Assembly (NCBI RefSeq): GCF_027214025.1
Contig: NZ_JAPWHB010000005.1
Location: 196,575 to 260,574, forward strand
Reading direction: 5' to 3'
Origin: Parahoeflea alexandrii
GTDB lineage: Bacteria; Pseudomonadota; Alphaproteobacteria; Rhizobiales; Rhizobiaceae
DNA length: 64,000 nucleotides
This document shows positions 4,078-58,211 of the stretch, in pieces. A program made the translations under genes and the position numbers. Below the pieces are notes generated by a model that saw nothing but the letters and a program-made list of their open reading frames with translations, ran no database searches and was not told where the DNA came from. How positions within the stretch are numbered: the stretch's first letter is position 1; each line of letters begins with the position of its first letter.

Positions 4078-4300
4078 TCAGACCGTCACGATACACACAA
4101 GGCCAGTTTCTTTCAATCCGGATCGATGGCGGCTAAGAAACTGAGCCTTTACGGCGATGTTCCGACAGTTCCTGTCGCCGGCACAATCTTCGGGATCGGA
4201 CCGTCCCGATCATGCCGGCGAGAGACTGCCCGGCGGTTCCGGCCTGCGCCATCCGGAAACGGAGATTGAAGTTCGCCGGAAGAAGGGCTAGTCGGAAACC

Positions 4301-4996: not shown

Positions 4997-5062
4997 CCAG
5001 ACCCGGCGCGCCTCGAAAGCGGTTTGCGCAAGCCGGCCCGCTTCTCCCGGCCGACCAACCTT

Positions 5063-5743: not shown

Positions 5744-5752
5744 CCGCTCTCC

Positions 5753-33793: not shown

Positions 33794-33795
33794 CC

Positions 33796-35070
33796 TCAAC
33801 TCCCGAAGAAGTCGAGCGCGGCGCCGAGTTCAGGAGCCTTTCTGGCCCAGGCATTCAGCGTCTGGCCGGACCCGATCGCGTCCCAGGCCTGGCGCAGGCT
33901 CTGGACGCCGGCCGTCGGCCCCCGGGGATGCGCGAGGATGCCGCCGCCGGCCATGAACAGGAAATCCGGGCTGCCGACCGCCTCGAAGGTCCGCGGCAAG
34001 GTGCCAGCCCACTGGCCTGAGGAGAACGCCGGCATGACCCGGTCGTCCGGATCGGTTCCGTCCGCGGCGAGCGGCACGATGCACCGTCTCGCAGCGGCTT
34101 CGACCTCGTCCGCCGCATCCACAAACTTGCCGCCGATCCCGTGCACATGCATGTGGTCGACGCCCGCCAGCCGGTACATCGCCTGATAGGCGTCAAAGGC
34201 GATGCCGAGCAGCGGATGGCGCGACATTGCGCCAAAGCCGTTGCGGTGGGCGTGAATGGCCAGCGGCGTATGCGCCCTGAGGCTCTCCATGCCTGACAGC
34301 CCGCACCAGTTCAGGCTCGCCATCACGCACGAGCCGCCCTCGGCGGCCACCAGATCGGCGTGGCGGCGCATCGCATCGGTTTCGTCGGTGATGTTGAAGG
34401 CCATCATTACATCGCGCCCGGTCCGGTCGCGGAAAGCCCGGATCCTGGCCATGACAGCCGGAACCCGCTCGGCGATCGGCGCATGATCGGGATTGGCGCA
34501 GACCTCGTCATCCTTGATGAAATCGACGCCGGCCTCGCACAGTGTCTCGACCAGGTCGGCGATCTCGCTCGAGCGCATGCCGACATTGGGCTTGATGATG
34601 GTGCCGAACAGCGGCCGGTCGTAGACATCCAGTTGCGCCCGCGTTCCCGCGATGCCCATGGTGGGCATGGCATACCGTGCCCGGTAGGTCTGCGGAATTG
34701 AAAGCGAGAGCAGTTTGAGCCCGGTCAGTTCTCCGATGTCATAGAGATTGCCGGACACCGTGGCGGCCAGGGTCGGCAGGTTGCGGCCGATATTTGCCAC
34801 CGGGAAGGCAATCCGCACCAGAGCCCGCCTGTAAGGTCCGGCCACCGCCTTGCGCTGCAGGTAGGCGCTCTCGAGACTGGGGACCCCGACCGGATCCAGT
34901 TCACTGACCTCCAGCACTTCGGCGGCGGCGCGGGCCCGCAACTCGTCGGTCTCGCCAGCCACGCGGACGAAAGTGCCGCTCGACTGCTCGCCCGCCATCA
35001 CCGCTGCGATCCGGGCGGGATCCATCGGCGTTTCGATGAGGTAGGTGGCTTCGATGCGATCGGTTTTCAT
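33796..35070 (-). CDS. RuBisCO-like protein (form IV), RLP1
   Basis: Large-subunit-fold enzyme of 424 aa. Many RuBisCO active-site positions are kept: Lys160 (K175), Lys186-Asp-Asp-Glu189 (K201-E204, the carbamylation/Mg site), His275-Arg276 (H294-R295), His308 (H327) and Lys315 (K334). The position of K177 is Asn162, which excludes a normal carboxylase. It probably enolises or decarboxylates the phosphorylated keto-acid made by the adjacent DUF1537 kinase. It lies between the kinase and the VOC gene, with the TRAP importer upstream. OiaX-type 3-oxo-isoapionate-4-phosphate decarboxylase is the best guess; other branched sugar acids such as hamamelonate are possible. Confidence 0.88.
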   Translation of the reverse strand: MKTDRIEATYLIETPMDPARIAAVMAGEQSSGTFVRVAGETDELRARAAAEVLEVSELDPVGVPSLESAYLQRKAVAGPYRRALVRIAFPVANIGRNLPTLAATVSGNLYDIGELTGLKLLSLSIPQTYRARYAMPTMGIAGTRAQLDVYDRPLFGTIIKPNVGMRSSEIADLVETLCEAGVDFIKDDEVCANPDHAPIAERVPAVMARIRAFRDRTGRDVMMAFNITDETDAMRRHADLVAAEGGSCVMASLNWCGLSGMESLRAHTPLAIHAHRNGFGAMSRHPLLGIAFDAYQAMYRLAGVDHMHVHGIGGKFVDAADEVEAAARRCIVPLAADGTDPDDRVMPAFSSGQWAGTLPRTFEAVGSPDFLFMAGGGILAHPRGPTAGVQSLRQAWDAIGSGQTLNAWARKAPELGAALDFFGS

Positions 35071-45369: not shown

Positions 45370-45554
45370 CCGGAAAAGCGCCGACTGTGCTGCTTTCCGA
45401 TGACCTTGTTTGGCGTGCTTGTCTTGTTGCGTGAGCGGCTCCTGATAAAAGTTACCTCCCCGTGATGTGAAATCTTGGTCGAAATGTCAGGCGAGACAGA
45501 TTTTTCTGGTTCGCTGCCGGAGTGTGGTCAATGGCCGAAGCGACAGAAATTGTA

Positions 45555-45585
45555 CATTTGCCAAATGCGTTGACATTTGTATATT
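45555..45585 (+). promoter_or_regulatory. Promoter and operator of the transketolase-RLP2 operon
   Basis: The perfect 13-bp palindrome CATTTGCCAAATG (45555-45567) overlaps a candidate -35 TTGCCA (45558-45563). A -10 TATATT (45580-45585) follows after 16 nt. It contains two overlapping copies of TTGNCAAATG, the motif also found before mtnK and before the aldolase/SDR gene. Binding of a regulator here would block RNA polymerase, so repression by the SorC-type protein is inferred. Confidence 0.6.
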
Positions 45586-45621
45586 ATCGGGACATTGTCG
45601 GCCGGAATGAGGGAGACAGAA

Positions 45622-46551
45622 GTGCGCAACAAACGTTCGACCGAAGATGTGGCCATGGGTATTCGCAGACGGGTGTTCGAGCACTCGATGCGCAACAATG
45701 GCGGCTATCTGAGCCAGGCCTGTTCGGCGGCCGAGCAATTGGCTTTCCTCTACAATGAAGCCCTGAACCTTGGCGAACCGGTGCTGCCCGCAGTGCCCAG
45801 GCCTTTCGCCGGTGTACCCTCCGCCGACAATCCCGATTATGTGACCGGCGCCGGTTACAACGGCCCGTTCGAGCCGCAATACGACCGTCTGTTCATTGCC
45901 CCCGCACATTACGCGCTGGTTGCCTATGCGACGCTGATCGAGACCGGGCGCATGGATGCCGAAGGTCTCGAGATGTTCAACAAGGACGGCTCTTCGGTCG
46001 AGATGATCGGCGCCGAGCATTCTCCCGGCATGGAAGTTCACAACGGCACGCTCGGCATCGGGCTGTCCACCGGCGCAGGCCTCGCCTTCGGCCGCAAGCG
46101 CCGCGGCGAGAGCGGCCAGGTCTGCGTCTTCATGTCCGACGGCGAGGTCCAGGAAGGCCAGACCTGGGAAGCGGTCCAGGCGGCAAGCCATCACGGCATC
46201 GACAATCTCTGGGCGCTGATGGATGTCAACGACCAGCAGTGCGACGGCGCCATGGATTCGGTCATGGAAGTGCGCGACATCGCCGCCAAGTTCCGCGCCT
46301 TTGGCGCGGTCTGCGTGGAGATCGACGCCCATGACCTGAACGCAATGCGGCAGGCGAAGGCCGAGCCGCATGAAGGTCAGCCGCTGATCATTCTGGCCCG
46401 GTCCTCTCCGACGCAAGGCATGAGCTTCCTGCAGAAAAGGTTCCCGCGGCTGCACTATGTGCGGTTCAAGTCCGAAGACGAGCGCGCCGAGATGAATGTC
46501 TCGATTGCTGCCGAGCTTGGTATCGACCCGATCGAACTGGAGACGCACTGA
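45622..46551 (+). CDS. Transketolase, N-terminal (TPP-binding) subunit
   Basis: First half of a split transketolase, 309 aa. It shows GAEHSPGMEVHNGTLGIGLSTGAG (the PP-module start, split here as read) and the TPP/Mg motif SDGEVQEGQTWEAVQ with VNDQQ about 30 residues later. GTG 45622 is chosen because GGGAG lies 6 nt before it; ATG 45607 and TTG 45577 are alternatives. The stop overlaps the next start by 1 nt. Split transketolases occur in apulose-4-phosphate metabolism (AptAB) and in pentose pathways. Here the partner genes are an RLP, MtnK and MtnA, so the sugar phosphate handled may be unusual. Confidence 0.88.
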   Translation: MRNKRSTEDVAMGIRRRVFEHSMRNNGGYLSQACSAAEQLAFLYNEALNLGEPVLPAVPRPFAGVPSADNPDYVTGAGYNGPFEPQYDRLFIAPAHYALVAYATLIETGRMDAEGLEMFNKDGSSVEMIGAEHSPGMEVHNGTLGIGLSTGAGLAFGRKRRGESGQVCVFMSDGEVQEGQTWEAVQAASHHGIDNLWALMDVNDQQCDGAMDSVMEVRDIAAKFRAFGAVCVEIDAHDLNAMRQAKAEPHEGQPLIILARSSPTQGMSFLQKRFPRLHYVRFKSEDERAEMNVSIAAELGIDPIELETH

Positions 46552-47555
46552 TGGTTGAGATGGTCAATCGCCCCTATGCGTCGGCCTTCGAGGCCTACGC
46601 CGTCAAGCATCCCGACGTGCTGTGCCTGTCAGCCGACCTGACCTCGTCCTGCGAGATCGACGGCTTCCGCGACCGCCACCCGGACCAGTTCCTGTCGCTC
46701 GGCATGGCCGAGCAGAACATGATGAGCTTCGCCGGCGGCCTCGGCCTTGCCGGTTACCGGCCGTTCCTGCATTCCTTCGGCGTCTTCCTCTACCGCAGGC
46801 CCTATGACCAGCTGATGGCATCGGTCGCCTATCCGCGCCGCAAGGTGCGGTTGATGGGCTTCCTGCCCGGCATCACCACGCCCGGCGGCATGACCCACCA
46901 GGCCATCGAGGATGTCGCCGTGATGCGGTCGATCCCCAACATGTCGATCCTCGAGACCGGCGATGCCACCGAGGTCGAGAGCATCTGCGAGGCCGCCGAT
47001 TCCATCGACGGACCGGTCTATTGCCGCGTGCTGCGCGGCTCGGTGCCGCGCCTCTTCGACAGCCCGATCAAGGTCGGCGAAATGCGTGAACTCGCAACCG
47101 GCGCCGATGTTCTGGTGGTCACCTCCGGCATCGCAACCGAGGAAGCGCTCCGCGCCCGCGATGCGCTGTCCAAGGCCGGCGTTTCGATCCGGCATCTGCA
47201 CATTCACACCATCAAGCCGTTCAACGAGCAGGCTCTGCTCGATCATATTGGCTCGGTGAGCAAGGGCGTCGTGGTGCTCGAGAACCATGTGATCACCGGC
47301 GGTGTCGGCTCGCTGGTCGCAGAGATTATGGCCGACAATGGTGTCGGCAAGCCGCTGGTGCGGCTCGGCCTCAACGACACCTATGCCCATGGCGGTTCGC
47401 GCGGCTACCTGATGAAGCATTACGGACTTGATGCCGGTGCGCTGGTGCGCGGCATCGAGCGCATCATCGGCGCCTCGACCGGCATCGACGAGGAAGCGCT
47501 TGCCAGCGCCCGCGTCGAGGCGGTTCACTCCGCCGTCAAGGCCGAGGCTCTGTAA
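46551..47555 (+). CDS. Transketolase, C-terminal (Pyr/transketolase_C) subunit
   Basis: Second half of the split enzyme, 334 aa. The catalytic Glu is in LGMAEQNMMSFAGGLGLAG near residue 62, the substrate-contacting His in GGMTHQAIEDVAVMRSIPNM near 122, and the C-terminal domain runs from about 190 (GADVLVVTSGIATEEAL) to the end. It is coupled to the N-subunit (overlap of 1 nt) and to the RLP2 gene (2 nt apart), so equal amounts are expected. Resemblance to the DXS C-half is general for the superfamily; no DXS-specific motif was recognised. Confidence 0.9.
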   Translation: MVEMVNRPYASAFEAYAVKHPDVLCLSADLTSSCEIDGFRDRHPDQFLSLGMAEQNMMSFAGGLGLAGYRPFLHSFGVFLYRRPYDQLMASVAYPRRKVRLMGFLPGITTPGGMTHQAIEDVAVMRSIPNMSILETGDATEVESICEAADSIDGPVYCRVLRGSVPRLFDSPIKVGEMRELATGADVLVVTSGIATEEALRARDALSKAGVSIRHLHIHTIKPFNEQALLDHIGSVSKGVVVLENHVITGGVGSLVAEIMADNGVGKPLVRLGLNDTYAHGGSRGYLMKHYGLDAGALVRGIERIIGASTGIDEEALASARVEAVHSAVKAEAL

Positions 47556-47557
47556 GC

Positions 47558-48688
47558 ATGGCGGACGACACCCGGTTCCGTGTTCGCTACCGGCTGCGTG
47601 CTGACACGCCGCAGGAGGCAGATCAGCGCGCGCTCGGCATCGCGCTCGAGCAGACGGTCGAGATCCCCGGCGACATCGTGCCTGAAGGACATATCAGCGA
47701 TGAGATCGTCGGCCAGATCGAGGACGTTCGCCCTCTTGGCGGCAATGCCTACGAGGCGGACATCTCCTACAGCCCCGACAGCGCCGGTGACGAGGTCATC
47801 CAGCTCATCAACGTGATCTTCGGCAATTCGTCGATCCAGCAGAACATCCGCGTCGTCGGCTTCGAGCCGGGCCGCGTGATCCGCGAGCGTTTCGGCGGCC
47901 CGCGTTTTGGCATCGAAGGTGTGCGTGCACGTTCTGGCCGCAGCCGTGGTGGCCTTATCTCTCCGGTGATCAAGCCGCAGGGCTCGAGCGTCAGGCAGCT
48001 TGCCGATATCGCCTATCGCTGCACGCTGGGCGGTGCGGACATCATCAAGGACGACCACGGTCTCGCCAACCAATCCTTCGCGCCGTTCTCAGAACGTGTG
48101 AAGGCCGTCAGCGATGCGGTGGGCGAAGCCAACGCCAAGTTGGGTGGTTCCGCGCTCTACTTCGTCAATGTCACCGGTCATACCGGCTCGCCCGTCGCAG
48201 AAGCGTTTCAGGCAAAGGAAGCCGGCGCGGGCGGTGTGCTGCTGATGCCCGGCTTGATGGGCTTCGGTGTTGTCCAGGCGCTTTCGCGTGATCCGTCCTT
48301 CGATCTGCCGATCATGACCCATCCGAGCTTCACCGGGCCCTATGTGCTCACCCCTGAAACCGGCGTCTCACATGCCATCATGTATGGCGTGTTCCAGCGT
48401 CTGGCGGGGTCGGACATCTCGGTGTTTCCCAATGTCGGCGGCCGCTTCGGCTTCAGCGTCGAGGAATGCCTGTCGATTGCAGATGCCTGCCGCGCCTCCG
48501 ACGGCATCGGCCGGGCGATGATGCCGAGCCCCGGCGGCGGCATGAGCTTCGAGCGCGCCGGCGACATGGTCTCGATGTACGGCGAGGACGTGGTCTTCCT
48601 GCTCGGCGGCAGCCTGCTGCGTGCCGGAGACAGGATCGGTGATGCGGTGCGCGCCATGCGCGATGCCGTCGACAGCATCGGGGCCTGA
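47558..48688 (+). CDS. RuBisCO-like protein (form IV), RLP2, divergent active site
   Basis: Large-subunit-fold enzyme of 376 aa. The barrel start SPVIKPQGSS keeps Lys139 (K175), and IIKDDHGLANQ keeps Lys164, Asp165 and Asp166 (K201-D203) but has His167 where RuBisCO has E204. K177 is Gln141; H294 appears as His255 but R295 is Pro256; H327 is lost and K334 seems to be Arg296. Phosphate-loop glycines remain (PGGGM near 327, LLGGS near 351). It cannot be a carboxylase. Position after a transketolase and near MtnK/MtnA suggests an isomerase or related step on a phosphorylated 5-substituted ketopentose, comparable to but not the same as the Rhodospirillum methylthioribulose-1-phosphate isomerase. 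Confidence 0.85.
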   Translation: MADDTRFRVRYRLRADTPQEADQRALGIALEQTVEIPGDIVPEGHISDEIVGQIEDVRPLGGNAYEADISYSPDSAGDEVIQLINVIFGNSSIQQNIRVVGFEPGRVIRERFGGPRFGIEGVRARSGRSRGGLISPVIKPQGSSVRQLADIAYRCTLGGADIIKDDHGLANQSFAPFSERVKAVSDAVGEANAKLGGSALYFVNVTGHTGSPVAEAFQAKEAGAGGVLLMPGLMGFGVVQALSRDPSFDLPIMTHPSFTGPYVLTPETGVSHAIMYGVFQRLAGSDISVFPNVGGRFGFSVEECLSIADACRASDGIGRAMMPSPGGGMSFERAGDMVSMYGEDVVFLLGGSLLRAGDRIGDAVRAMRDAVDSIGA

Positions 48689-48721
48689 CCTGAACAACCG
48701 GGGTCTGTCCTGGTAAACTCA

Positions 48722-48753
48722 GGGGCTGGTCGAAAGACCGGCCCCGCTTTTTT
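48722..48753 (+). terminator. Rho-independent terminator of the transketolase-RLP2 operon
   Basis: A 10-bp stem, GGGGCTGGTC and GACCGGCCCC (one G-T pair), closes a GAAA tetraloop and is followed by a run of seven T. It lies 33 nt after the RLP2 stop. This is a textbook intrinsic terminator. Confidence 0.9.
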
Positions 48754-48825
48754 ATCCTGGCATCGGATCCACGGATTGAAGCCATCCAATTGCCAGACGC
48801 TTCATCCGCTCCTGAATCAGGGCGC

Positions 48826-48854
48826 AAAAAAGCCGCGTCCGGAGACGCGGCTTT
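48826..48854 (-). terminator. Rho-independent terminator of the minus-strand sugar importer
   Basis: An 11-bp perfect stem, AAAGCCGCGTC and GACGCGGCTTT, with a 4-nt loop; on the minus strand it ends in six T. It lies 24 nt beyond the binding-protein stop. The stem symmetry means it may also stop plus-strand read-through. Confidence 0.88.
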
Positions 48855-48878
48855 GTCATCCCGGGAGGGGATGTCGGA

Positions 48879-49934
48879 TCAGCGTGCCGGAAGCGGCATC
48901 CACTCGGTCATGGCGACATCGGCATGGGCGAATTGCGGCATCTTCGCCGACAGCTCTTCCATGTTCTTGATGTCGTTTTCCTTGAGGAAGTCCTGCGTGA
49001 TCAGCGTCGGCGGTACCACGACCTGGGCGCCGGGATCGCCACCGGTCAGCATGATTGCAAGCGTCCGCACGGAGACTTCGCCGACCACGGCCGGGTTGGT
49101 CGCGACGGTCGCAGCCCAGGCGCTGTCAGGCTCGCGCATGGCCGAGATGTCGGCGGTCGAAACGTCGGCGGAGTAGATCTTGATGTCCTGCGACATGCCG
49201 GCTTCGTCCACCGCGATCTTCACGCCCTTGGCGAATTCGTCATAGGGAGCGAAGAACACGGAGATGTCCGGGTTCGCCTGCAGCACCGAGCGGGCCTGGT
49301 TGGCGTTGGAGTTGGCGATCGGGTTGTCGAGCGTGCCGATCTGGGCTGCCTCGACGATGCCCGGATTGGCCTTCTTGACTTCTTCCCAGGCGACATGGCG
49401 GCGGTCGAGCGGCGCGATGCCCGGCACGTAGACATAGCCGGCCTTCCATTCGGTGCCGTTGTCCTTGATCGCCTGTTCCAGCGCCAGCTTGCCGAGCAGG
49501 TAATCCGACTGCTCGACCTGCGGGATCGCGGGGTTCTCGACATTGACGTCGAAGGCCACGACCTTGATGCCGGCGTCTACCGCACGCTGGGCGGCTTCCT
49601 TCATCGATTCGGTCAGGCCGTGCTGGATGATGATCCCGTTGACGCCGAGCGCGATGGCCTGGTCGACCATGTCCGCCTGAAGGGCTGCGTCCTGGCGGCT
49701 GTCAAGCACGCGGAGATCGACGCCAAGCGCTGCAGCCTGCTTTTCCACGCCCGACAGATAGGCCTGGAAGAAGTCGCCGGTGGAAAGATAGCGCACCAGC
49801 GCGATCTTGACGTCGCCTGGCTTGTCGAGCGGCGCCGGCATGTCCGCGGCTTGCGCGAAGCCGGCGGGAAGGGTGACGGCTGCAGCGGCGAGGCCGGCAA
49901 ACAGGGCCAGGGCTTTTCTGCGTATCAGTTTCAT
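48879..49934 (-). CDS. Ribose-type ABC transporter substrate-binding protein (RLP2/mtn locus)
   Basis: Periplasmic binder of 351 aa, Peripla_BP_4. The Sec signal MKLIRRKALALFAGLAAAAV ends at GFAQA; the core is DVKIALVRYLSTGDFFQAYLSGVEKQAAALGVD, with MVDQAIALGVNGIIIQHGL. ATG 49934 follows GGAGG; the frame is open further upstream but only through the permease gene. It lies last in the importer operon, unlike most binding-protein genes, with its own terminator. The ligand is inferred to be the pentose derivative phosphorylated by MtnK, for example 5-methylthioribose or 5-deoxyribose. Confidence 0.92.
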   Translation of the reverse strand: MKLIRRKALALFAGLAAAAVTLPAGFAQAADMPAPLDKPGDVKIALVRYLSTGDFFQAYLSGVEKQAAALGVDLRVLDSRQDAALQADMVDQAIALGVNGIIIQHGLTESMKEAAQRAVDAGIKVVAFDVNVENPAIPQVEQSDYLLGKLALEQAIKDNGTEWKAGYVYVPGIAPLDRRHVAWEEVKKANPGIVEAAQIGTLDNPIANSNANQARSVLQANPDISVFFAPYDEFAKGVKIAVDEAGMSQDIKIYSADVSTADISAMREPDSAWAATVATNPAVVGEVSVRTLAIMLTGGDPGAQVVVPPTLITQDFLKENDIKNMEELSAKMPQFAHADVAMTEWMPLPAR

Positions 49935-49966
49935 GCTGTTTTCCTCCGTTAAATGATTGGTCTTGC

Positions 49967-51034
49967 TTAGTGGCCGCCGGCTTTCCGGGCCGAGAGCGAG
50001 AAGGTGAAGACAAGGGCGATGACCAGCACCAGGCCCTTGATGAAATCCTGCGTGTAGTAGGGTGCGTTCATCATCGTCAGGCCCTGCAGCAGGATACCGA
50101 CGAACAATGCGCCCATGGATGTGCCGAAGGCGTTGGGCTTGGCGGCGCCCAGAACCGCAAAGCCGATCAACGAGGCGGCCACGGCATCGAGCAGCAGATT
50201 GGTGCCCGAGGCGATGTCGCCGCGCCCGAGCCGGGCGGCAAGCAGCATCCCGCCGATCGAGGCCAGCACGCCCGAGATCATGTAGGCGAGAATCTTGTAG
50301 TTGTTGACATTGGTGCCCGTCAGGCTCGCCGCGCGCTCGTTCGAGCCGATCGCGTACATCAGCCGGCCGTGGCGGGTGAGTTCCAGGAAAACCCACACGA
50401 GAATGCCGATGACCACCAGGAAGATCACCGGTGCCGGCAGAAGGTTGTCGAGCATGAAGTCGAAGCGGTGGCGGCCGAGTTGCAGGAACAGCGGCGAGAA
50501 GGTGCCTTCGGCGGTCGAACCGTCGGGCAGGCTCATGCCGGTGGCAATGGAACGTCCTTCGGTCGGAATCCGCTGCAGGCCGACCAGCAGGAACATCATG
50601 CCGAGCGTCGCCAGCAGATCCGGAACCTTGGTCTTGACGATCAGCAACCCGTTGATCAGGCCGATCAGCGCGCCCATCGCCAGGCAGGCAATGATGGCGA
50701 CGAACGCGGGTTGTTCCAGAACCACCATCATGTAGGCCGCCAGCATCATCGACGAGGTGGCGACCGAGCCGATCGACAAATCGAAGCCGCCGACCACCAG
50801 CGTGCAGGTGACGCCCAATGCCAGGATGCCGGTGATCGCCACCGACTGGAAGATGAACACCGCGCTGCGCGGCCCGGCAAAGCCGCTGGCGAAGACCGAG
50901 AAGAAAATCACCAGTCCGACGAGAAGCGCGAGGAACCCGTAACGGATGGAGATGTCGATCAGCCCGTTGGAGCTGGGCTGCGGTTTTTGCGGGCGCGAAC
51001 CCGCGCTCGGGGTTTCGGTCTGGTTCATGCTCAT
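49967..51034 (-). CDS. Ribose-type ABC transporter permease (RLP2/mtn locus)
   Basis: Permease of 355 aa, with about 27 hydrophilic residues before the first helix. VGGFDLSIGSVATSSMM, VKTKVPDLLATLGMMFLLVG and the C-terminal VLGAAKPNAFGTSMGALFVG are RbsC-family features. The ATG overlaps the ATPase stop (ATGA). It is the single permease gene of this system, so a homodimer is expected. Confidence 0.92.
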   Translation of the reverse strand: MSMNQTETPSAGSRPQKPQPSSNGLIDISIRYGFLALLVGLVIFFSVFASGFAGPRSAVFIFQSVAITGILALGVTCTLVVGGFDLSIGSVATSSMMLAAYMMVVLEQPAFVAIIACLAMGALIGLINGLLIVKTKVPDLLATLGMMFLLVGLQRIPTEGRSIATGMSLPDGSTAEGTFSPLFLQLGRHRFDFMLDNLLPAPVIFLVVIGILVWVFLELTRHGRLMYAIGSNERAASLTGTNVNNYKILAYMISGVLASIGGMLLAARLGRGDIASGTNLLLDAVAASLIGFAVLGAAKPNAFGTSMGALFVGILLQGLTMMNAPYYTQDFIKGLVLVIALVFTFSLSARKAGGH

Positions 51035-52563
51035 GCGTGTGCTGTCCTTGCGGCGCTGCCGGCATCTGCCGGCAATGCCCCGGTTACTGCGGTCAGGATC
51101 TCGTTGAGATCCACGTTCTCGTTTCTGAATTCCGCCGCGACCGAATGCTCGGTCATGACGATGATGCGGTCGGCGACTTCCAGCGCCTCGTCGAGTTCCG
51201 AGACGAACACCAGCGTCGCCCGGTTCTTCGCGGTCTCGCGGATCTTGCGGCCAATATCGCGGCGGGCGCGGATGTCGACGCCCTGGAAAGGCTCGTCGAG
51301 CAGCAGCAGCCGACAGTCCTCCGCCAGCCAGCGTGCCAGCATCACCTTCTGCTGGTTGCCGCCCGACAGCGTGCCGATGGAATCTGTCTCGCCCTGGCAT
51401 ACGATCGACAGCGCCTCGATCATTTCCTGGGCGGTCTTCCGCTCGTCCGAACGTCTGATGAAAGACAGGTTCGAGTAACGCGAGAGGAAGGGCAGGGTGA
51501 TGTTGCGGGTGATGTCGAAATCGGCGACCACGGCATTGTTGGCCCGGTCCTTGGCCGACATGAACACGCCGCGTGCGATCGCGGCCTTCGGGGTCGCCGG
51601 CGCATAATCCTCGCCGTCAATCCGGATGCTGCCGGCCGCCGGGCGGCCGAGCCCGAACAGGCTCTGCGCAAACGCGCTCTTGCCGCTGCCGAGCAGGCCG
51701 GTCACGGCCACCACCTCGTTTTCGCACAGGTTGAAGTCGAACGGCTTGCTGCCGGAGAGCAGTTTGAGATCGCGGATCTCAAGTACAGGCTTTCCAGGCG
51801 CGCCGACGCTGATGTCGGCATCCGTCATGCGGTGGCCGAGCATCGCGTTGACCGCGCCTTCATAGTCGAGCTCGTCGCCTTCGAAGACGCCGGAGATCTC
51901 GCCGTCGCGCATCGAGACGATGCGGTCGGCGATGCGGCGGATGTCCGACATCCGGTGCGAGATGTAGAGGACGGCAACGCCCTTGGCCGAAAGACGTTCG
52001 ATCAGCAGGAACAGCCGTTCGGCCTCCGAGGCCGAGAGCGACGATGTCGGCTCGTCCAGAATGAGCAGTTGCGGGTCATGCGCCATGGCCCGGGCAATGG
52101 CGATCAGCTGCCGGTCGGCGACGCCGAGCTCGGCCACCGATTGCCGCACGTTGAGAGTGAGCCCCATCTGGCTCGCGATGCGCTCGGCATCGGCATAGTT
52201 CTGCCGGCGCTTGAGAAAGAAGCCGTAGCCGGGCTCCGCAAGCCTGTCGATCAGCAGGTTGGAAGCGACATCGAGATCGGGGATCACCCCGTCATTGATG
52301 TTCTGGTGCACGGTGACGACGCCGGCGCGAATGGCTTCGGAAGGAGTCGACGGCCGGAAATCCTTGCCCAGCAGGGTGATCGAACCGGCGTCGAGCGCAT
52401 GCACGCCGCTCAGGATCTTGACCAGCGTGGACTTGCCCGCGCCATTGGCGCCCATGAGCACGGTCACCGATCCGGCAGGCAGCGACAGGTTCAGCTGCTT
52501 GAGGACACGGTTGTCCCCGAACGACTTGTCCACACTGCGCAGATCGCAAAGAGTTCCGTTCAT
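51031..52563 (-). CDS. Ribose-type ABC transporter ATP-binding protein, two NBDs (RLP2/mtn locus)
   Basis: Tandem ATPase of 510 aa. NBD1 has Walker A GANGAGKSTLVKI near residue 39 and Walker B LLILDEPTSSLS near 169; its signature is the degenerate AELGVADRQ. NBD2 has TGLLGSGKSAFAQ, the canonical LSGGNQQKVMLARWLA and LLLLDEPFQGVDIRA. It is first in its operon, divergent from mtnK across a 117-bp gap with a perfect 16-bp palindrome. It probably drives uptake of the sugar that MtnK phosphorylates. Confidence 0.93.
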   Translation of the reverse strand: MNGTLCDLRSVDKSFGDNRVLKQLNLSLPAGSVTVLMGANGAGKSTLVKILSGVHALDAGSITLLGKDFRPSTPSEAIRAGVVTVHQNINDGVIPDLDVASNLLIDRLAEPGYGFFLKRRQNYADAERIASQMGLTLNVRQSVAELGVADRQLIAIARAMAHDPQLLILDEPTSSLSASEAERLFLLIERLSAKGVAVLYISHRMSDIRRIADRIVSMRDGEISGVFEGDELDYEGAVNAMLGHRMTDADISVGAPGKPVLEIRDLKLLSGSKPFDFNLCENEVVAVTGLLGSGKSAFAQSLFGLGRPAAGSIRIDGEDYAPATPKAAIARGVFMSAKDRANNAVVADFDITRNITLPFLSRYSNLSFIRRSDERKTAQEMIEALSIVCQGETDSIGTLSGGNQQKVMLARWLAEDCRLLLLDEPFQGVDIRARRDIGRKIRETAKNRATLVFVSELDEALEVADRIIVMTEHSVAAEFRNENVDLNEILTAVTGALPADAGSAARTAHA

Positions 52564-52596
52564 GCTGTCCTCCCGCTATGATGAAAACAGCAGCGC

Positions 52597-52625
52597 TGAC
52601 AAAAGTCAATACGTATTGACAAATG
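52597..52625. promoter_or_regulatory. Operator region between the sugar importer and mtnK
   Basis: The region holds the perfect 16-bp palindrome GTCAATACGTATTGAC (52605-52620), flanked by two direct repeats TGACAAAAG (52597) and TGACAAATG (52617) spaced 20 bp. The second is part of TTGACAAATG, the shared motif of this locus. Its place between divergent operons (importer on the left, mtnKA on the right) suits joint control by the SorC-type regulator. Confidence 0.6.
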
Positions 52626-52680
52626 ATTGATGTGGGCACTAGGCTTGGTCAACAAACAGCCTGGACTGTCATTTGGGAGG

Positions 52681-53949
52681 ATGGTTTTGAGCAACAACTA
52701 CAAACCTTTATCGCCGGAAACCCTGGGCCAGCGGCTGGGCGGACTCGACGTCATGAAGCAGGCCGTGGGCGGCAGTGCCGACGCATGGACGGTGCGGGAG
52801 GTCGGCGACGGCAACCTCAATCTCGTCTTCATCGTGGAAGGTGACGCGGGCAGCGTCATCGTCAAGCAGGCGCTTCCCTATGTGCGCCTGGTCGGCGACA
52901 GCTGGCCGCTGCCGCTCAAGCGTGCATTTTTCGAATATCATGCGCTGATCCGTCAGGAAGCCCGCGACCCGGGCAGTGTCCCCCAGGTGCTGCATTTCGA
53001 TGAAAGCCAGGCGCTCATCGTCATGGAGCGCTTGCAGCCGCATATTATTCTGCGCCAGCAGACCATGGAAGGGCGCAAGGTTGCGGGACTTGGCCGGACC
53101 TTGGGATTGTTTGCTGCGCGCACCGCGTTTCGCGGGTCGGATTTGTCAATGGAGGCTGGCGACAAGAAAGCCGACGCTGCGCTCTTTGCCGGCAATGCTG
53201 AGCTGTGCGACATCACCGAAACGCTGGTTTTCACCGATCCCTACTACGCTGCGGAATTGAACCGGCACACCACGCCGCAGCTCGACGGCATCGTGGCCGA
53301 CCTGCGCCGCGACGAAGCGCTGAAGGTTGAAGTCCAGCACATGAAGCGGGCGTTCACCTCGCGCGGCGAGACCATGTGCCATGGCGATCTGCATGCCGGC
53401 TCGATCATGGTGACAGATGAGCAGTCGCGCATCATCGATCCTGAATTCGCCTTTTATGGCCCGTTCGGTTTCGACATCGGAATGCTGATTGGCAATTACC
53501 TGATGGCCTATCACGCTATGCCGGCCCACATTTCCGATGCGGATGCCTGCCGCGATTTCCAGGACTGGATCCTCTCGGTCATCGAGGAGACCTGGACAGT
53601 GTTCCGCGAGGAATTCCTGCACCTGTGGCGTACGGAACGCACCGGCATTCTCTATCCCAAGGCGCTTTACGAAGATCAGGGACATAATTTCGCTTCCGAG
53701 GCGGCTGCCGAGCAGCTGCTGGGCGAGATCTTCCGCGATCTGGTCGGCTTCGCCGGCATCGAGATGCATCGCCGTATCCTCGGCCTCGCTCATGTTGCCG
53801 AACTCGACACCATCGAGGACGAGGATCTGAAGGCCCGCTGCGAGGCCAAATGCCTGAAGCTGGGTCAGCTCCTGGTCATCAACAGAAATCGGCTGACCGG
53901 CATGGATGCCGTATTGGCAGCGGCGCGGCGCGCTGAAACGGGAGCATAG
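52681..53949 (+). CDS. mtnK: S-methyl-5-thioribose kinase (MtnK)
   Basis: ATP-dependent kinase that makes 5-methylthioribose-1-phosphate (also acting on 5-deoxyribose in some bacteria); about 422 aa, the family's normal size. It belongs to the protein-kinase-like APH fold: [15 protein letters not shown] (Gly loop), [12 protein letters not shown] with the ATP Lys, [13 protein letters not shown], the catalytic [11 protein letters not shown], and [15 protein letters not shown] with metal-binding Asp and Glu. ATG 52681 abuts GGGAGG with no spacing, while TTG 52687 lies 6 nt from it, so the true start may be TTG. It is followed by mtnA after 2 nt. No MTA/5'-deoxyadenosine nucleosidase is adjacent, so the ribose is imported or made elsewhere. 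Confidence 0.92.
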
Positions 53950-53951
53950 GC

Positions 53952-55055
53952 ATGAAGGTTGGCGATACGCATTACCGGTCGATCTGGTTTGACGGCGAAA
54001 CGGCCAGGGTCAAGATCATTGACCAGCGCTGGCTGCCGCACGAGTTTCGTGTGGTTGAACTGGAAACGCTGAGTGAATTCGCCACCGCGATCCGGGACAT
54101 GTGGGTACGCGGCGCACCGCTGATCGGTGCCACCGCCGCCTATGGCGTCGCCATCGAAATGCAGCGCAATGCCTCCGACGAGGCGCTTGACAATGCCTGG
54201 GAGCGGCTGCACGAGACCCGGCCGACGGCGGTGAACCTGCGCTGGGCGCTCGACGAGATGCGCGGCGTCATTGCCGGTCTTCCCGAAAGCGAGCGCGCCG
54301 CCGCCGCCTTCCGCAAGGCCGAGGAGATCTGCGACGCCGACGTCGAGACCAACCGCATGATCGGGGTACATGGCCTCGAGATTGTCCGGAAGATCGCCGC
54401 TACCAAGAAACCCGGCATGCCGGTCAATATCCTGACCCACTGCAATGCCGGCTGGCTGGCAACCGTGGACTGGGGCACGGCCACCTCGCCGATGTATCAC
54501 GCCGCGACTGCCGGCATTCCCATCCATGTCTGGGTCGACGAGACCCGCCCGCGCAACCAGGGCGCCCAGCTGACCAGCTGGGAGATGAACAGTCATGGCA
54601 TCCCGCATCATCTCATCGTCGACAATGCCGGCGGGCACCTGATGCAGCATGGCCAGGTCGACTTGGTCATCGTCGGCACCGACCGCACGACCGCCTCCGG
54701 CGATGTCTGCAACAAGATCGGCACTTATCTCAAGGCGTTGGCCGCCCATGACAACAACGTGCCGTTCTACGTCGCGCTTCCCTCGAGCACCATTGACTGG
54801 ACCGTCGACGATGGTGTGCGGGAAATCCCGATCGAGGAACGCGATGACCGCGAGGTCACCCATGTCTTTGGCCGTCTGGAAGACGGCAGCGTCACCTCGG
54901 TGCAGATTTCCCCGGATGGTACGCCCGGCGGCAACCCGGCCTTCGACGTGACGCCGGCGCGCCTGGTGACCGGCCTGATCACCGAGCGCGGCGTCGCAGA
55001 AGCCAGCCGCGAGGGACTGCTGGGCCTGTTCCCGGAACGCCGCAACGCCGCGTGA
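53952..55055 (+). CDS. mtnA: S-methyl-5-thioribose-1-phosphate isomerase (MtnA)
   Basis: Aldose-ketose isomerase, 367 aa, converting methylthioribose-1-phosphate to methylthioribulose-1-phosphate. The catalytic Cys164 ([18 protein letters not shown]) and Asp244 ([19 protein letters not shown]) are present, as is the N-terminal phosphate region [15 protein letters not shown]. It is two nt downstream of mtnK. The usual methionine-salvage followers (mtnB, mtnC, mtnD, mtnW) are absent, so the ketose phosphate should enter another route: RLP2, the transketolase or the aldolase/SDR fusion at 56 kb. Confidence 0.93.
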
Positions 55056-55082
55056 TTGGGCATCGTCTGAGCGGCAGTCGTC

Positions 55083-56054
55083 TCAGGCGAGTTCCATCAT
55101 AGCTGCGGCGCAGCTCTGGTTGGTCACCACATGGGTGGCATATCCGCCCCTGATCGCGGCCACGGCGGCCGGCACCCGCTCTTCGCCCACGGACACCAGG
55201 ATGCCCATGTCGCGGTGGCGCAACTCCTCGAGTTCGATCCCCATCATCCGGTCGTCCAGCGGACCGGAAACCGGATCGCCCTTGGCGTCGATGAAGCGGC
55301 CGCACAGCACGCCGACCGCGCCGTTGGCGATGTAGTCTTCGAGCTCTTTCTGGGTAGCGACGCCGCTCGAGGCGACATGGCTGTCGGGTTTGCAGGAGCC
55401 CACTGCAAACAGCGTCTTGTTGCAGTCGCTGATCGCATCGAGCTGCTTGGCGATCAGCGATTCCGCCCTGAGGGTGGCGGCGATCTCGGCCGTGCTGAGG
55501 ATTGCCGGCACATGCAGGTTGATGCACTTGGCCGAGAACTTGCGCGCCACGTTGGACGAGCAGACATCGGCGGAAAAGCCGTAGGGCGTGGCCATCGAGC
55601 CGACCAGCTGCAGCACGGTCAGGTCCGCAATCGTCGTCTGTTCCAGGCGTTCGGCGACATCGTAGATGGTCTTGCCCCAGGCAACGCCGAGCCGGTCGCC
55701 CGGCTCCAGCAGGCTCGGCAGCCAGTCCGCAGCGCCGCGGATGATGCGGCTCGCGTGGTCGTCCTGTCCGCCTGTGCCGTCGGGCAGGATATAGGCGGCC
55801 TTGAGCCCGAAGCGGTCGCGCAGTTCCAGCGCGGCGCGATGCGTGTTGAAGGCTTCCGGCGAGAGCTTGGTGTGGATGTAACCGCGCTCGCGGGCTTCCT
55901 GCAGATAGTTGACCACGGTTGCGCGCGACACCAGGAGCCGGTTGGCAATTTCGCTCTGGTTGAGCCCGTCATGATAGTAAAGCCATGCGGTTTCGACGAC
56001 GATGTCCTCGCCGCTGATCTGTTTGGTAGAGCGCCTGGTTGAGTTCTGAGGCAT
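55083..56054 (-). CDS. SorC/DeoR-type sugar-binding transcriptional regulator
   Basis: Regulator of 323 aa. The N-terminal HTH lies at residues 22-60 (TAWLYYHDGLNQSEIANRLLVSRATVVNYLQEARERGYI). The C-terminal sugar-phosphate-sensing domain of the SorC/CggR family has GDRLGVAWGKTIYDVAERL, TVLQLVGSM and GVGSCKP-like VGSCKPDSHVA. It sits between mtnKA and the divergent aldolase/SDR gene and reads away from a perfect inverted repeat. It probably senses a phosphorylated intermediate such as methylthioribulose-1-phosphate and controls the four transcription units from 45.6 to 58.2 kb. Confidence 0.9.
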   Translation of the reverse strand: MPQNSTRRSTKQISGEDIVVETAWLYYHDGLNQSEIANRLLVSRATVVNYLQEARERGYIHTKLSPEAFNTHRAALELRDRFGLKAAYILPDGTGGQDDHASRIIRGAADWLPSLLEPGDRLGVAWGKTIYDVAERLEQTTIADLTVLQLVGSMATPYGFSADVCSSNVARKFSAKCINLHVPAILSTAEIAATLRAESLIAKQLDAISDCNKTLFAVGSCKPDSHVASSGVATQKELEDYIANGAVGVLCGRFIDAKGDPVSGPLDDRMMGIELEELRHRDMGILVSVGEERVPAAVAAIRGGYATHVVTNQSCAAAMMELA

Positions 56055-56076
56055 TTCGATCCATCACCAAAATATA

Positions 56077-56109
56077 CATTTGACAATAGTGAATGACTTT
56101 TGTCAAATG
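56077..56109. promoter_or_regulatory. Inverted repeat CATTTGACAA/TTGTCAAATG between sorC and the aldolase gene
   Basis: Two perfect 10-bp arms (56077-56086 and 56100-56109) are separated by 13 nt, 30 bp before the aldolase ATG and 23 bp before the regulator ATG. Each arm is the TTGNCAAATG motif that also occurs upstream of the transketolase operon and of mtnK. This is the strongest of the three sites and the likely autoregulatory operator. Confidence 0.7.
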
Positions 56110-56138
56110 CGACAAGTTCACATGGGCAGGAGACGGTA

Positions 56139-58211
56139 ATGCGGCAAAACAGGTGGAATGACAAGGAAGCCCAGGCGCGGGTCGATGCGGCGGGCGCCGA
56201 TCCGGCTGACCGCACGCTGGCGCTCAGGGTCTATTCATCCCGCATCATAGGCGCCGATCCCGATCTTGTCATGCATGGCGGCGGCAACACATCCGTCAAG
56301 ACCGAGCGACGGGACCTGTTCGGAGCGATGCAAAAAGTCCTGCACGTCAAGGGCAGCGGCTGGGATCTCGACACGCTCGAGGCGCCCGGCCTGCCTGGCG
56401 TCCGGCTCGAGCCGCTGCTTGAGATGCGCAAGCTCGATGCGCTGTCCGATGAGGACATGGTCAACATGCAGCGTTCCAACCTGCTCGATTCCTCCGCCCC
56501 CAACCCGTCGGTCGAGACCCTGTTGCATGCTTTCCTGCCGCACACTTTCGTCGACCACACCCATGCGACGGCCTTTCTGGCACTGGCAAACCTGCCGGAC
56601 GCCGAAGCCGCGATCCGCGAGATCTTCGGCGACCGGCTGGCGGTGGTGCCCTACATCATGCCCGGCTTTGCGTTGGCCAAAAAGGCCGCCGAAGTCTTCG
56701 ACGCCCATCCTGATTGCGAGGGGTTGATCCTGCTCAAGCACGGTCATTTCACCTTTGGCGCTTCTGCGAAGGAGAGCTACGACAAGGTCATCGAGCACAC
56801 CAACTTGGTCGAGGAGTGGCTTGCTGCGAAAAACCAGGGCCGCAGGTTCGATTGTACCGTCAAGCGGACCCGCCAGCTTGCGGACCCGGATTCAGCGGCT
56901 TCCGTCCTGCCGGTTCTGCGCGGCGCCATCGCAAGCTTGCGCGGTGATCACCACAATGCAGCGCCCCGGCCTGTGCTGATGGACATTCGGGGCGGTCAGG
57001 CAATCAACGCCTTTCTTGGCCGCAACGATCTCGACGATCTGGCGCAACGCGGTGTCGCCTCGCCCGATCACGTCATCCGCACCAAGGGCCGCATGCTGGT
57101 TCTGAGCCAGGATGATCTCGCCAGCGGACGCGACGCGATCGAGGCGAAGGTGGCGGACTACGCTGCCGCCTACCGCGCCATGTTCGACGCGCAATTCAAG
57201 AGGGTTGGCGGCGGCAAGGTGATGCTCGAGCCACACCCTTGCGTGGCCTGGATCGAAGGCATCGGCATAGCCGGCATCGGCAAGGATGCAGCCGCCGCCT
57301 CGGCCGCCGCCGATATCGCCGAGCAGACCGTCGAGGTGATGAGCCAGGGCGAGGCAGCCGGCGGCTTCCGCCCCATCGGCCCGGACGATCTCTTCGACAT
57401 GGAATACTGGTCGCTCGAACAGGCCAAGCTGTCAAAGGCGGCCGCCAAGCCCTTCGCCGGGCAGATCGTCGCCGTCACCGGCGGCGCCGGCGCCATCGGG
57501 CTCGCCACCGCCAAGACCTTCGCCCGCGAGGGGGCTGCAATTGCCCTGATCGATTTCAACCCGGAAGCCTGCAAGGCCGCAGCTGCTTCGATCGGATCCA
57601 ACTGTCTCGCTGTCGTCGCCGATCTCACTGCAAAGGGCTCAGCCGAGCAGGCCGTCGCCGAAATCGTCCGGCGCTTTGGCGGTCTCGACGTGCTCGTCTC
57701 CAATGCGGGGGCCGCGATCCAGGGCATGCTGCTCGATCTTGACGACGCCACCCTGCGCTCGAGTTTCGAACTCAACTTCTTCTCGCACCTGGCCATGGCA
57801 AGGGCCGCGGCTCGGGTGTTCGCATCACAGAACCATGGCGGGCAGATGCTGTTCAACGTCTCCAAGCAGGCGGTCAATCCGGGCAAGGGTTTTGGCGCCT
57901 ACGGGCTTCCCAAGGCAGCCACCTTCTTTCTGGTCCGACAACTGGCGCTGGAACTTGGCGGGGCCGGTGTCCGGGTCAATGGCGTCAATGCCGACCGGAT
58001 CCGCTCCGGCCTGCTGACCGATGATTTCATCAAGTCCCGCGCCGAGGCGAGGGGAGTCTCCGCCTTGGACTACATGGCCGGCAACCTGCTGAAGGCCGAA
58101 GTCGAAGCCCATCATGTCGCCGACGCATTCGTGGCGCTCGCCAAGTCCGAGAGGACCACGGCGCACGTGATCACCGTGGACGGCGGCAATATCGAGGCTG
58201 CCTTGAGGTAA
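56139..58211 (+). CDS. Fused class II aldolase and short-chain dehydrogenase (RhaD/SDR type)
   Basis: Bifunctional protein of 690 aa. Residues 30-430 form a class II aldolase-like domain: DLVMHGGGNTSVK (phosphate loop), zinc His pair in FVDHTHATAFLAL, and a further His in LLKHGHFTFG. Residues 445-690 are an SDR: AVTGGAGAIGLATAKTFA, SNAGAAIQG, NVSKQ (Ser) and AYGLPKAA (YxxxK), then ITVDGGNIEAA. Similar fusions cleave rhamnulose-1-phosphate and process lactaldehyde. Here, near MtnK/MtnA and under the same operator motif, it could cleave 5-deoxy- or methylthioribulose-1-phosphate to DHAP plus an aldehyde. The start is ATG 56139 behind AGGAG. Confidence 0.9.
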   Translation: MRQNRWNDKEAQARVDAAGADPADRTLALRVYSSRIIGADPDLVMHGGGNTSVKTERRDLFGAMQKVLHVKGSGWDLDTLEAPGLPGVRLEPLLEMRKLDALSDEDMVNMQRSNLLDSSAPNPSVETLLHAFLPHTFVDHTHATAFLALANLPDAEAAIREIFGDRLAVVPYIMPGFALAKKAAEVFDAHPDCEGLILLKHGHFTFGASAKESYDKVIEHTNLVEEWLAAKNQGRRFDCTVKRTRQLADPDSAASVLPVLRGAIASLRGDHHNAAPRPVLMDIRGGQAINAFLGRNDLDDLAQRGVASPDHVIRTKGRMLVLSQDDLASGRDAIEAKVADYAAAYRAMFDAQFKRVGGGKVMLEPHPCVAWIEGIGIAGIGKDAAAASAAADIAEQTVEVMSQGEAAGGFRPIGPDDLFDMEYWSLEQAKLSKAAAKPFAGQIVAVTGGAGAIGLATAKTFAREGAAIALIDFNPEACKAAAASIGSNCLAVVADLTAKGSAEQAVAEIVRRFGGLDVLVSNAGAAIQGMLLDLDDATLRSSFELNFFSHLAMARAAARVFASQNHGGQMLFNVSKQAVNPGKGFGAYGLPKAATFFLVRQLALELGGAGVRVNGVNADRIRSGLLTDDFIKSRAEARGVSALDYMAGNLLKAEVEAHHVADAFVALAKSERTTAHVITVDGGNIEAALR

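Follow-up and report, generated by a model that had tools for sequence, protein, structure and literature searches.

The genes at about 45.5-58.2 kb of a 64,000-nucleotide stretch of Parahoeflea alexandrii DNA (contig NZ_JAPWHB010000005.1; the whole stretch is hereafter called the window) raise the question of what a transketolase split into an N-terminal (TKN) and a C-terminal (TKC) subunit and a RuBisCO-like protein (RLP) are doing beside a ribose-type ATP-binding cassette (ABC) importer, MtnK, MtnA, a SorC-type regulator and a class II aldolase fused to a short-chain dehydrogenase (SDR). An earlier note on this DNA had listed these genes, all of which were found at the locus by our family searches (Table 1), and had read them as a candidate for a single new pentose-phosphate pathway. 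Our analysis points instead, with a probability of roughly 60%, to a catabolic regulon for 5-methylthioribose and/or 5-deoxyribose, the presumed substrates, with two outlets from 5-X-ribulose-1-phosphate.

In the proposed scheme, the importer would take up a free ribose bearing a group X at C5 (X being methylthio and/or hydrogen), MtnK would convert it to 5-X-ribose-1-phosphate, and MtnA would isomerize the latter to 5-X-ribulose-1-phosphate, where the two outlets would diverge. Through the first, the aldolase domain would cleave 5-X-ribulose-1-phosphate to dihydroxyacetone phosphate (DHAP) and X-acetaldehyde, as in the DHAP shunt, and the fused SDR would reduce or oxidize the aldehyde. Through the second, a carbonyl shift by the RLP would give 1-X-xylulose-5-phosphate, whose C2-C3 bond would be cut by the split transketolase to yield glyceraldehyde-3-phosphate and an X-bearing C2 unit bound to thiamine diphosphate (ThDP); the transketolase, whose whole reaction we infer, would take the place of the cupin of the 5'-methylthioadenosine (MTA)-isoprenoid shunt.

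The conserved co-occurrence that the earlier note had suggested looking for was sought in two collections, i.e. 397 genomes of the order to which the host belongs (thresholds E 1e-40 for the RLP search and E 1e-120 for the TKC profile), and the loci of the best 80 of at least 547 RLP relatives, 17 of which are shorter than 17 kb, several of the counts being lower bounds. Among these 80 named loci, TKC was found in 76, MtnA in 69, MtnK in 62, a complete importer in 62, a relative of the SorC-type regulator in 49 and the aldolase/SDR fusion in 46; a DeepYkr-type cupin was found in none of them, nor was it matched in the host genome. The RLP gene directly follows TKC on one strand in 76 of 76 cases, with aligned edges -1 to 33 nucleotides apart, and MtnA stands immediately 5' of TKN on the common strand in 20 of the 80 loci. 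By these counts the arrangement is far from chance, and the proposal that the set is conserved as a unit was not refuted. Eight genomes lacking TKC or TKN at the locus were searched as a whole: four (L071, L072, L073 and L048) carry this transketolase elsewhere (E 6e-207 or better, or 1.2e-206), in three (L039, L100 and L126) it is interrupted by contig ends, and one bin (L118) has distant transketolase matches only (2e-25). Judged by record titles, the named loci come mostly from Alphaproteobacteria, together with one Myxococcales bin and one Enemella, which we take to be an actinobacterium, and many Rhizobiales and Rhodobacterales, some of them marine strains, carry an RLP of the window-type clade.

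In the order set, an RLP was detected in 35 genomes, of which 23 hold one of the window type, with at least 47% identity to the window RLP (58% for one match clipped by a contig end), and 12 have best matches of 35-43% identity. One stop was counted inside two of the 23 matches (G256 and G119); the extracted frames, of 371 and 376 residues, are free of stops. The TKC profile retrieved 26 genomes: all 23 with a window-type RLP, none of the 12 with more distant RLPs only, and three others (Fisher 2e-34 for the co-occurrence with window-type RLPs, not corrected for kinship). A search with a Cupin_2 protein gives matches of E 1e-54 or better next to 11 of 13 more distant RLPs, and of the 12 genomes with more distant RLPs only, 11 (all but G203) have the cupin next to the RLP. 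As none of these 12 has the transketolase, cupin and transketolase are mutually exclusive partners. A further locus, L066 (6583-10348), contains a more distant RLP that has no cupin and no transketolase beside it and follows a 38%-identical MtnK relative and a dehydrogenase-like gene; this neighbourhood may hold yet another RLP partner.

The locus is also tied together by its promoters. A repeated element is visible upstream of the transketolase genes in relatives, with counterparts by eye 5' of TKN in most of 10 relatives, and the pattern GACAWWWGTCA-N6/7-TTGWCAWWTG matches three promoter regions of the locus, i.e. those of the transketolase-RLP operon, of the importer and mtnK-mtnA, and of the regulator and the aldolase/SDR gene. 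With up to two mismatches, the N6 form has site 1 as its sole match in the 5,543,836-base genome and none in 100 shuffles; with up to three mismatches, sites 2 and 3 are the sole matches of the N7 form in that genome, and a control pattern read backwards has no match in it. The N6 form alone recovered one of the three promoter regions, and the N7 spacing recovers the other two. As the pattern was derived from these very sites, its matches there are circular, whereas its absence elsewhere in the genome is not. The locus looks like one regulon of three transcription units, presumably switched by the SorC-type regulator, which would be the binder of this operator. Together with the adjacency of TKC and RLP in 76 of the 80 loci, the single pattern at three promoter regions bears out the earlier suggestion that the genes act as a unit.

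The earlier note had called the RLP of the locus RLP2, a name that we rejected: the nearest structure is 3qfw from Rhodopseudomonas palustris (E 3.5e-72), and 2qyg, the R. palustris RLP2, is far weaker both in sequence (E 2.3e-24) and by Foldseek E-value, where 3qfw ranks first and 2qyg 16th against an AlphaFold model of the window RLP (pLDDT 88.2). In the tree, the window RLP and its relatives form the sister group of the DeepYkr clade, which holds 3qfw, and stand outside rather than within it, the joint branch having a support of 99/98 against MtnW. The two clades share the motifs KPQG, K[DE]DHGL and GGRF as well as the residues K139, K164, D166, H167 and R296. In the 101 loci read for residues (93 distinct RLP, 94 distinct TKC and 91 distinct TKN sequences, some genomes being present twice), K139 is found in 100 and K164, D166, H167, H255 and R296 in all; position 165 is D or E, and L051 and L053 deviate at the Q of KPQG. 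The metal-ligand position, E in RuBisCO and MtnW, is H in all 101 loci, as in DeepYkr-type sequences. A loop of six residues with H272 (99 of 101) is retained in the window clade; it is absent from the aligned DeepYkr-type sequences and present in MtnW. We identify 3qfw with R. palustris RLP1 on the grounds that the tree places it with the cupin-neighboured RLPs L055, L057 and L065, and RPA2169/2170 of R. palustris are reported as an RLP with a cupin neighbour (PMC5893883). RLP1 converts 5-(methylthio)ribulose-1-phosphate to 1-(methylthio)xylulose-5-phosphate and 1-(methylthio)ribulose-5-phosphate in a ratio of 3:1 (PMC5893883), and it is likely that the window clade would carry out the same isomerization.

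It is extremely improbable that the RLP is instead an MtnW-type enolase of universal methionine salvage. MtnW-type proteins are indeed the next-best profile and structure matches, and one of them, 2oem, slightly exceeds 3qfw in query-normalised TM-score (0.89 and 0.85). Yet the RLP scores only 146 bits against the MtnW model (cut-off 513.6), carries the exchange of the metal ligand from E to H in all loci, and is grouped with DeepYkr by the tree. Moreover, none of MtnB, MtnC, MtnD and MtnW is among the matches listed for the ten locus proteins, and MtnD (the acireductone dioxygenase, PF03079) has no match in the host genome, in a search that was positive in 5 of 14 control genomes. The lack of these enzymes stated in the earlier note therefore stands for the locus and, genome-wide, for MtnD, MtnB and MtnC not having been searched genome-wide.

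The catabolism of D-apiose or apionate (apiose is among the growth substrates that the earlier note had suggested trying) would make the RLP an OiaX and the split transketolase an apulose-4-phosphate transketolase. A split transketolase does occur in apiose/apionate catabolism. An RLP has a role there as well (PMC6302742), and an OiaX/OiaK-like pair, a second RLP and an OiaK-like kinase at 32510-35070 on the minus strand (401 and 211 bits, each against a cut-off of 700), lies about 12 kb from the locus in the same window. However, the locus RLP reaches only 59.6 bits of the 700 required by the OiaX model NF042437, and its partners are MtnK and MtnA, with nucleoside phosphorylases in variant loci. 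Apiose is hence not favoured, its probability being very low, and the neighbouring pair probably belongs to a different sugar-acid pathway.

The transketolase combines an intact catalytic core with a remodelled active site. For both subunits the best match in the PDB is the split-chain transketolase of Carboxydothermus hydrogenoformans (6yaj/6yak), which shares the two-subunit build; its C chain has T-H and D where the window TKC has F104/L105 and G112, and the window TKC adds a conserved C-terminal tail. Upon alignment to the host's own housekeeping transketolase (TKT) and 1-deoxyxylulose-5-phosphate synthase (DXS), the ThDP motif is present, and the catalytic core is kept in the readable loci: D178 and N208 in 99 of 99, E54 (equivalent to E411) in 100 of 100 and H116 (equivalent to H473) in 101 of 101. 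The counterparts of the phosphate arm are kept as well, R358 as R7 (95 R, 4 K), S385 as S33 and R520 as R162. A 1-X-ketose as the RLP product would explain why a dedicated transketolase is made together with the RLP, and a donor of this type, which lacks the hydroxyl at C1, would be in keeping with the missing counterpart of H100. Two further features stand out in the subunits. The last ~15 residues of TKC (46551-47555) form a tail, VHSxxKAE(A/G)L, past the usual domain that is near-invariant in 14 aligned sequences, and residues ~57-88 of TKN (45607-46551, numbered from the ATG at 45607) are a conserved insertion, GVPSxxN...GAGYxG, before the first ThDP-domain motif, without a counterpart in the host TKT and DXS.

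How the substrate enters is suggested by loci in which the kinase is missing. MtnA occurs without MtnK in 7 of the 80 named loci, six of them at least 17 kb long, and a purine-nucleoside phosphorylase is present in all six of these, as opposed to only 2 of the 52 loci of such length that carry MtnK (Fisher 7e-7, without a correction for kinship). Given this phosphorylase, the pathway very probably starts from a ribose-1-phosphate modified at C5. In L128 and on a plasmid of Ponticoccus alexandrii, the phosphorylase, an amidohydrolase, mtnA, TKN, TKC and RLP form a run on one strand, adjoined by a divergent gene for a BMP-type binding protein; neither of these two loci showed MtnK, its importer or the aldolase. 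The amidohydrolase resembles 5'-deoxyadenosine and MTA/S-adenosylhomocysteine deaminases and is under all cut-offs among the families listed. The order proposed earlier, namely import, phosphorylation at C1, isomerization, and then either aldol cleavage or RLP and transketolase, fits the MtnA-TKN-TKC-RLP runs of 20 of the 80 loci as well as the exchange of MtnK for a nucleoside phosphorylase. Clustering of the neighbouring genes gave ten clusters present in at least five loci, three of which bear on the pathway: the phosphorylase, the amidohydrolase and a FucU/RbsD-like mutarotase (11 of 80 loci; 74 bits, cut-off 141), the last of which fits a free sugar substrate.

In the Ponticoccus run, the gene for a BisC-family S/N-oxide reductase (901 bits, cut-off 1017.55) stands between mtnA and TKN, the genes overlapping, and BisC relatives occur in 5 of the 80 named loci, all without MtnK. 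As a sulfoxide reductase suits a thioether sugar and not 5-deoxyribose, we lean towards methylthio as X, 5-deoxyribose being also possible. None of the open-licence papers listed for MTA sulfoxide deals with bacterial catabolism, as far as the listing shows. Directly 3' of RLP, the same run encodes a 336-residue protein (L186, 12157-13167) for which NCBIfam gave no match at the threshold applied. An unmodified pentose (X = OH) is an improbable substrate. Ribose would then be converted via ribose-1-phosphate to ribulose-1-phosphate, from which the RLP would make xylulose-5-phosphate for an ordinary transketolase reaction, and the ribose-type importer, the mutarotase, and the IolC/ribokinase-like PfkB and XylB-like kinases of some variant loci, all under curated cut-offs, would be in keeping with it. 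This reading is countered by the scores of MtnK and MtnA, both above their methylthioribose cut-offs, by the S/N-oxide reductase within the Ponticoccus run, and by the housekeeping transketolase of the host, which would make a dedicated and remodelled one needless.

A number of observations weigh against the methylthioribose/deoxyribose reading, the first of them in the transketolase. H26, H100, H461 and D469 are canonical contacts to donor or acceptor (numbering and roles after E. coli TktA). In the alignment to the host TKT and DXS, H26 is replaced by Y34, H461 by F104/L105 and D469 by G112, and H100 has no counterpart; Y34, F104/L105 and G112 are invariant in the 97-101 loci readable at each position. 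The loss of the D469 and H461 contacts is not explained by a 1-X-ketose, since a plain 1-X-xylulose-5-phosphate donor should need both. Some of these changes are shared by a distant split transketolase (L177; 35% identity in TKC), and they may mark a wider transketolase subfamily. The L177 genes (4052-5934), with Tyr/Leu-Pro-Gly/Gly changes, adjoin (by eye) SDR-like, 2-hydroxyacid dehydrogenase-like and tricarboxylate-type transporter genes. The unusual acceptor-side residues could also mean that the transketolase takes the free modified sugar as an acceptor and does not act after the RLP; a reaction of this kind has been described for the housekeeping transketolase of Synechococcus elongatus, which uses 5-deoxyribose as an acceptor to form 7-deoxysedoheptulose (PMC8102628). 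We regard this as very improbable, for the transketolase is coupled in the loci to the RLP rather than to MtnK, the phosphate arm is preserved in R7, S33 and R162, and the RLP product would be left unused.

On the side of the RLP, besides the TM-score of 2oem, the own branch of the window clade has a support of only 89/78 in a tree flagged for long branches, and the branch also takes in L064, a long-branch RLP that neighbours neither a transketolase nor a cupin. As to gene content, in three genomes (G273, G330 and G367) the transketolase is present and no RLP reaches E 1e-40; 11 of the 80 loci (5 of the 63 long ones; 6 of the 11 are shorter than 17 kb) lack both MtnK and MtnA nearby, ten of them with the RLP-transketolase unit and one with the RLP alone; and some variant loci have another sugar importer, XylB-like or PfkB kinases and an AraD-like protein, none of which reaches its curated cut-off. 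The loci without MtnK and MtnA and the variants with other kinases point to other entry substrates, and the unit is not obligatory in every genome. Such loci could be accommodated by two separate pathways under one regulator, a DHAP shunt of importer, MtnK, MtnA and aldolase beside an unrelated RLP-transketolase pathway, as the three genomes without RLP have an alcohol dehydrogenase and another sugar importer near the transketolase, and XylB- and AraD-like genes occur in one variant. We nevertheless hold this to be unlikely, because MtnA lies immediately 5' of TKN in a quarter of the loci, mtnA stays with the trio in L128 and Ponticoccus, the phosphorylase that replaces MtnK is expected to give a like product, and the DeepYkr sister RLP uses the product of MtnA (PMC5893883). 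Loci with the transketolase and no RLP may show an RLP-independent role of this enzyme: in L171 and L172 the transketolase pair lies beside BisC-like, alcohol dehydrogenase, other sugar importer and (by eye) DmsABC-like genes, and in L173 beside another importer, an FGGY-like kinase and dehydrogenases, with no BisC match.

The individual features are given in Table 1. TKN, TKC and RLP are under every NCBIfam cut-off listed for them, and are therefore divergent members of their superfamilies. The importer and regulator also stay below curated cut-offs: the binding protein has 55.8 bits against RbsB (cut-off 337), the permease 165 bits against the ribose permease (398), the ATPase 376.6 bits against AraG, its best NCBIfam match (689), and the regulator 204 bits against DeoR (420). 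The aldolase/SDR fusion, whose aldolase domain matches PF00596 at 6.1e-20, has 466 bits against the RhaD-ADH model TIGR02632 (567.75). Start codons were chosen within longer open reading frames: that of TKN opens with TTG at 45577, and GTG at 45622, after GAGGGAG, is the likelier start; that of MtnK opens at 52627, and TTG at 52687 is likelier; that of the aldolase/SDR fusion opens at 56100, and ATG at 56139 is likelier.

Table 1. Features of the P. alexandrii locus, in window coordinates
Feature	Position	Strand	Basis
Operator site 1, 5' of transketolase-RLP operon	45553..45581	none	GACAWWWGTCA-N6-TTGWCAWWTG, 2 mismatches on each strand
TKN, transketolase N-terminal (ThDP-binding) subunit	45622..46551	+	Transketolase_N 5.2e-17; 6yak N chain 9.5e-33
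TKC, transketolase C-terminal (pyrimidine-binding + C) subunit	46551..47555	+	Transket_pyr 2.2e-24, Transketolase_C 1.4e-18; 6yaj C chain 1.4e-54
RLP, DeepYkr sister clade; proposed 5-X-ribulose-1-phosphate 1,3-isomerase	47558..48688	+	3qfw 3.5e-72, tree, motifs, model
Candidate intrinsic-terminator-like hairpin and T run, 3' of RLP	48722..48753	+	reading of the sequence
Periplasmic sugar-binding protein, ribose type	48879..49934	-	Peripla_BP_4 2.6e-34 (scanned from 49811 down)
ABC permease, ribose type	49967..51034	-	BPD_transp_2 1.1e-41
ABC ATPase, sugar type, two ABC stretches	51031..52563	-	ABC_tran 5.1e-50
Operator site 2, between divergent importer and mtnK-mtnA	52598..52627	none	N7 form: 0 mismatches on +, 3 mismatches on -
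MtnK	52687..53949	+	TIGR01767 484.6 bits, cut-off 275
MtnA, 5-methylthioribose-1-phosphate isomerase	53952..55055	+	TIGR00512 431.1 bits, cut-off 279
SorC-type sugar-binding regulator, presumed operator binder	55083..56054	-	Sugar-bind PF04198 3.8e-57
Operator site 3, between regulator and aldolase/SDR gene	56077..56109	none	0 mismatches on -, 1 mismatch on +
Class II aldolase fused to short-chain dehydrogenase	56139..58211	+	NF006192 888 bits, cut-off 639

Set beside known systems, the locus appears to be a variant of the MTA and DHAP shunts rather than a new pentose-phosphate pathway. Since the reaction of the DeepYkr clade, the sister group of this RLP, is published (PMC5893883), most of the proposed chemistry would re-use steps of MTA salvage. 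With the MTA-isoprenoid shunt of Rhodospirillum rubrum and R. palustris (MtnP, MtnA, the DeepYkr-type RLP1 and a cupin methylsulfurylase) the locus shares MtnA, a sister-clade RLP with the DeepYkr motifs, and the branch point at 5-X-ribulose-1-phosphate. It differs in having a dedicated split transketolase where the shunt has the cupin, and in its entry, which in the shunt is through MtnP and in the window type through the importer and MtnK, or through a BMP-type importer, amidohydrolase and phosphorylase; the best host match to MtnP has 93.4 bits, below the cut-off of 274.85. With the DHAP shunt of some E. coli (mtnK-mtnA-ald2; PMC10986504) it has in common that MtnK, MtnA and a class II aldolase belong to a single regulon; to these the window locus adds a dedicated ABC importer, a SorC-type regulator and the RLP-transketolase branch, and its aldolase, unlike that of the shunt, is fused to an SDR in the manner of PRK08324. 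R. palustris uses both shunts, and hence likewise has an aldolase and an RLP as two outlets from 5-(methylthio)ribulose-1-phosphate; its genes stand apart by locus number (RPA2169-2170, RPA4820-4821 and RPA4655), whereas those of the window share one operator pattern and the RLP has another partner (PMC5893883). The R. palustris RLP2 (Photo RLP, 2qyg) shares the RuBisCO-like fold, is more distant from the window RLP than 3qfw, and showed no detectable activity on 5-(methylthio)ribulose-1-phosphate (PMC5893883).

The rlp gene of Rhizobium etli, whose neighbours were reported as ribose genes with data not shown (PMC8914248), could not be tied to the window family; no R. etli record is among 21 plasmid matches at E 1e-60, in a search of plasmids only. 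A third RuBisCO-superfamily gene of the host, on contig C21 (L154), is Calvin-cycle-operon-like, with (by eye) aldolase-, transketolase-, phosphoribulokinase- and fructose-bisphosphatase-like neighbours and a LysR-like regulator. No report of an RLP-transketolase unit was found in the titles, abstract openings and passages of open-licence PMC papers.

What becomes of the X-bearing C2 unit is a matter for a more tentative proposal. The split transketolase could be a new kind of carbon-sulfur lyase that turns 1-(methylthio)xylulose-5-phosphate into glyceraldehyde-3-phosphate, methanethiol and acetyl-ThDP, the acetyl group being released as acetyl phosphate or acetate. The ThDP-bound methylthio-C2 enamine would expel methanethiol, and phosphate or water would take off the acetyl group; the mechanism is phosphoketolase-like, with a thiol and not water as the leaving group. 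We consider this quite unlikely, and no gene handling acetyl phosphate or methanethiol that would support it was recognised by eye among the ten neighbour clusters. If the proposal were true, MTA or methylthioribose would give up its methionine sulfur in a reaction that needs neither oxygen nor the reductive step that the cupin performs in the MTA-isoprenoid shunt. The transketolase branch, if confirmed, would in any case be a further outlet for 5-(methylthio)ribulose-1-phosphate, and might open a new way of converting MTA or methylthioribose to methanethiol or to C2 and C3 carbon. The proposed scheme also provides a testable role for a clade of RLPs whose annotated members in public records mostly bear only the name 'RuBisCO large subunit C-terminal-like domain-containing protein'.

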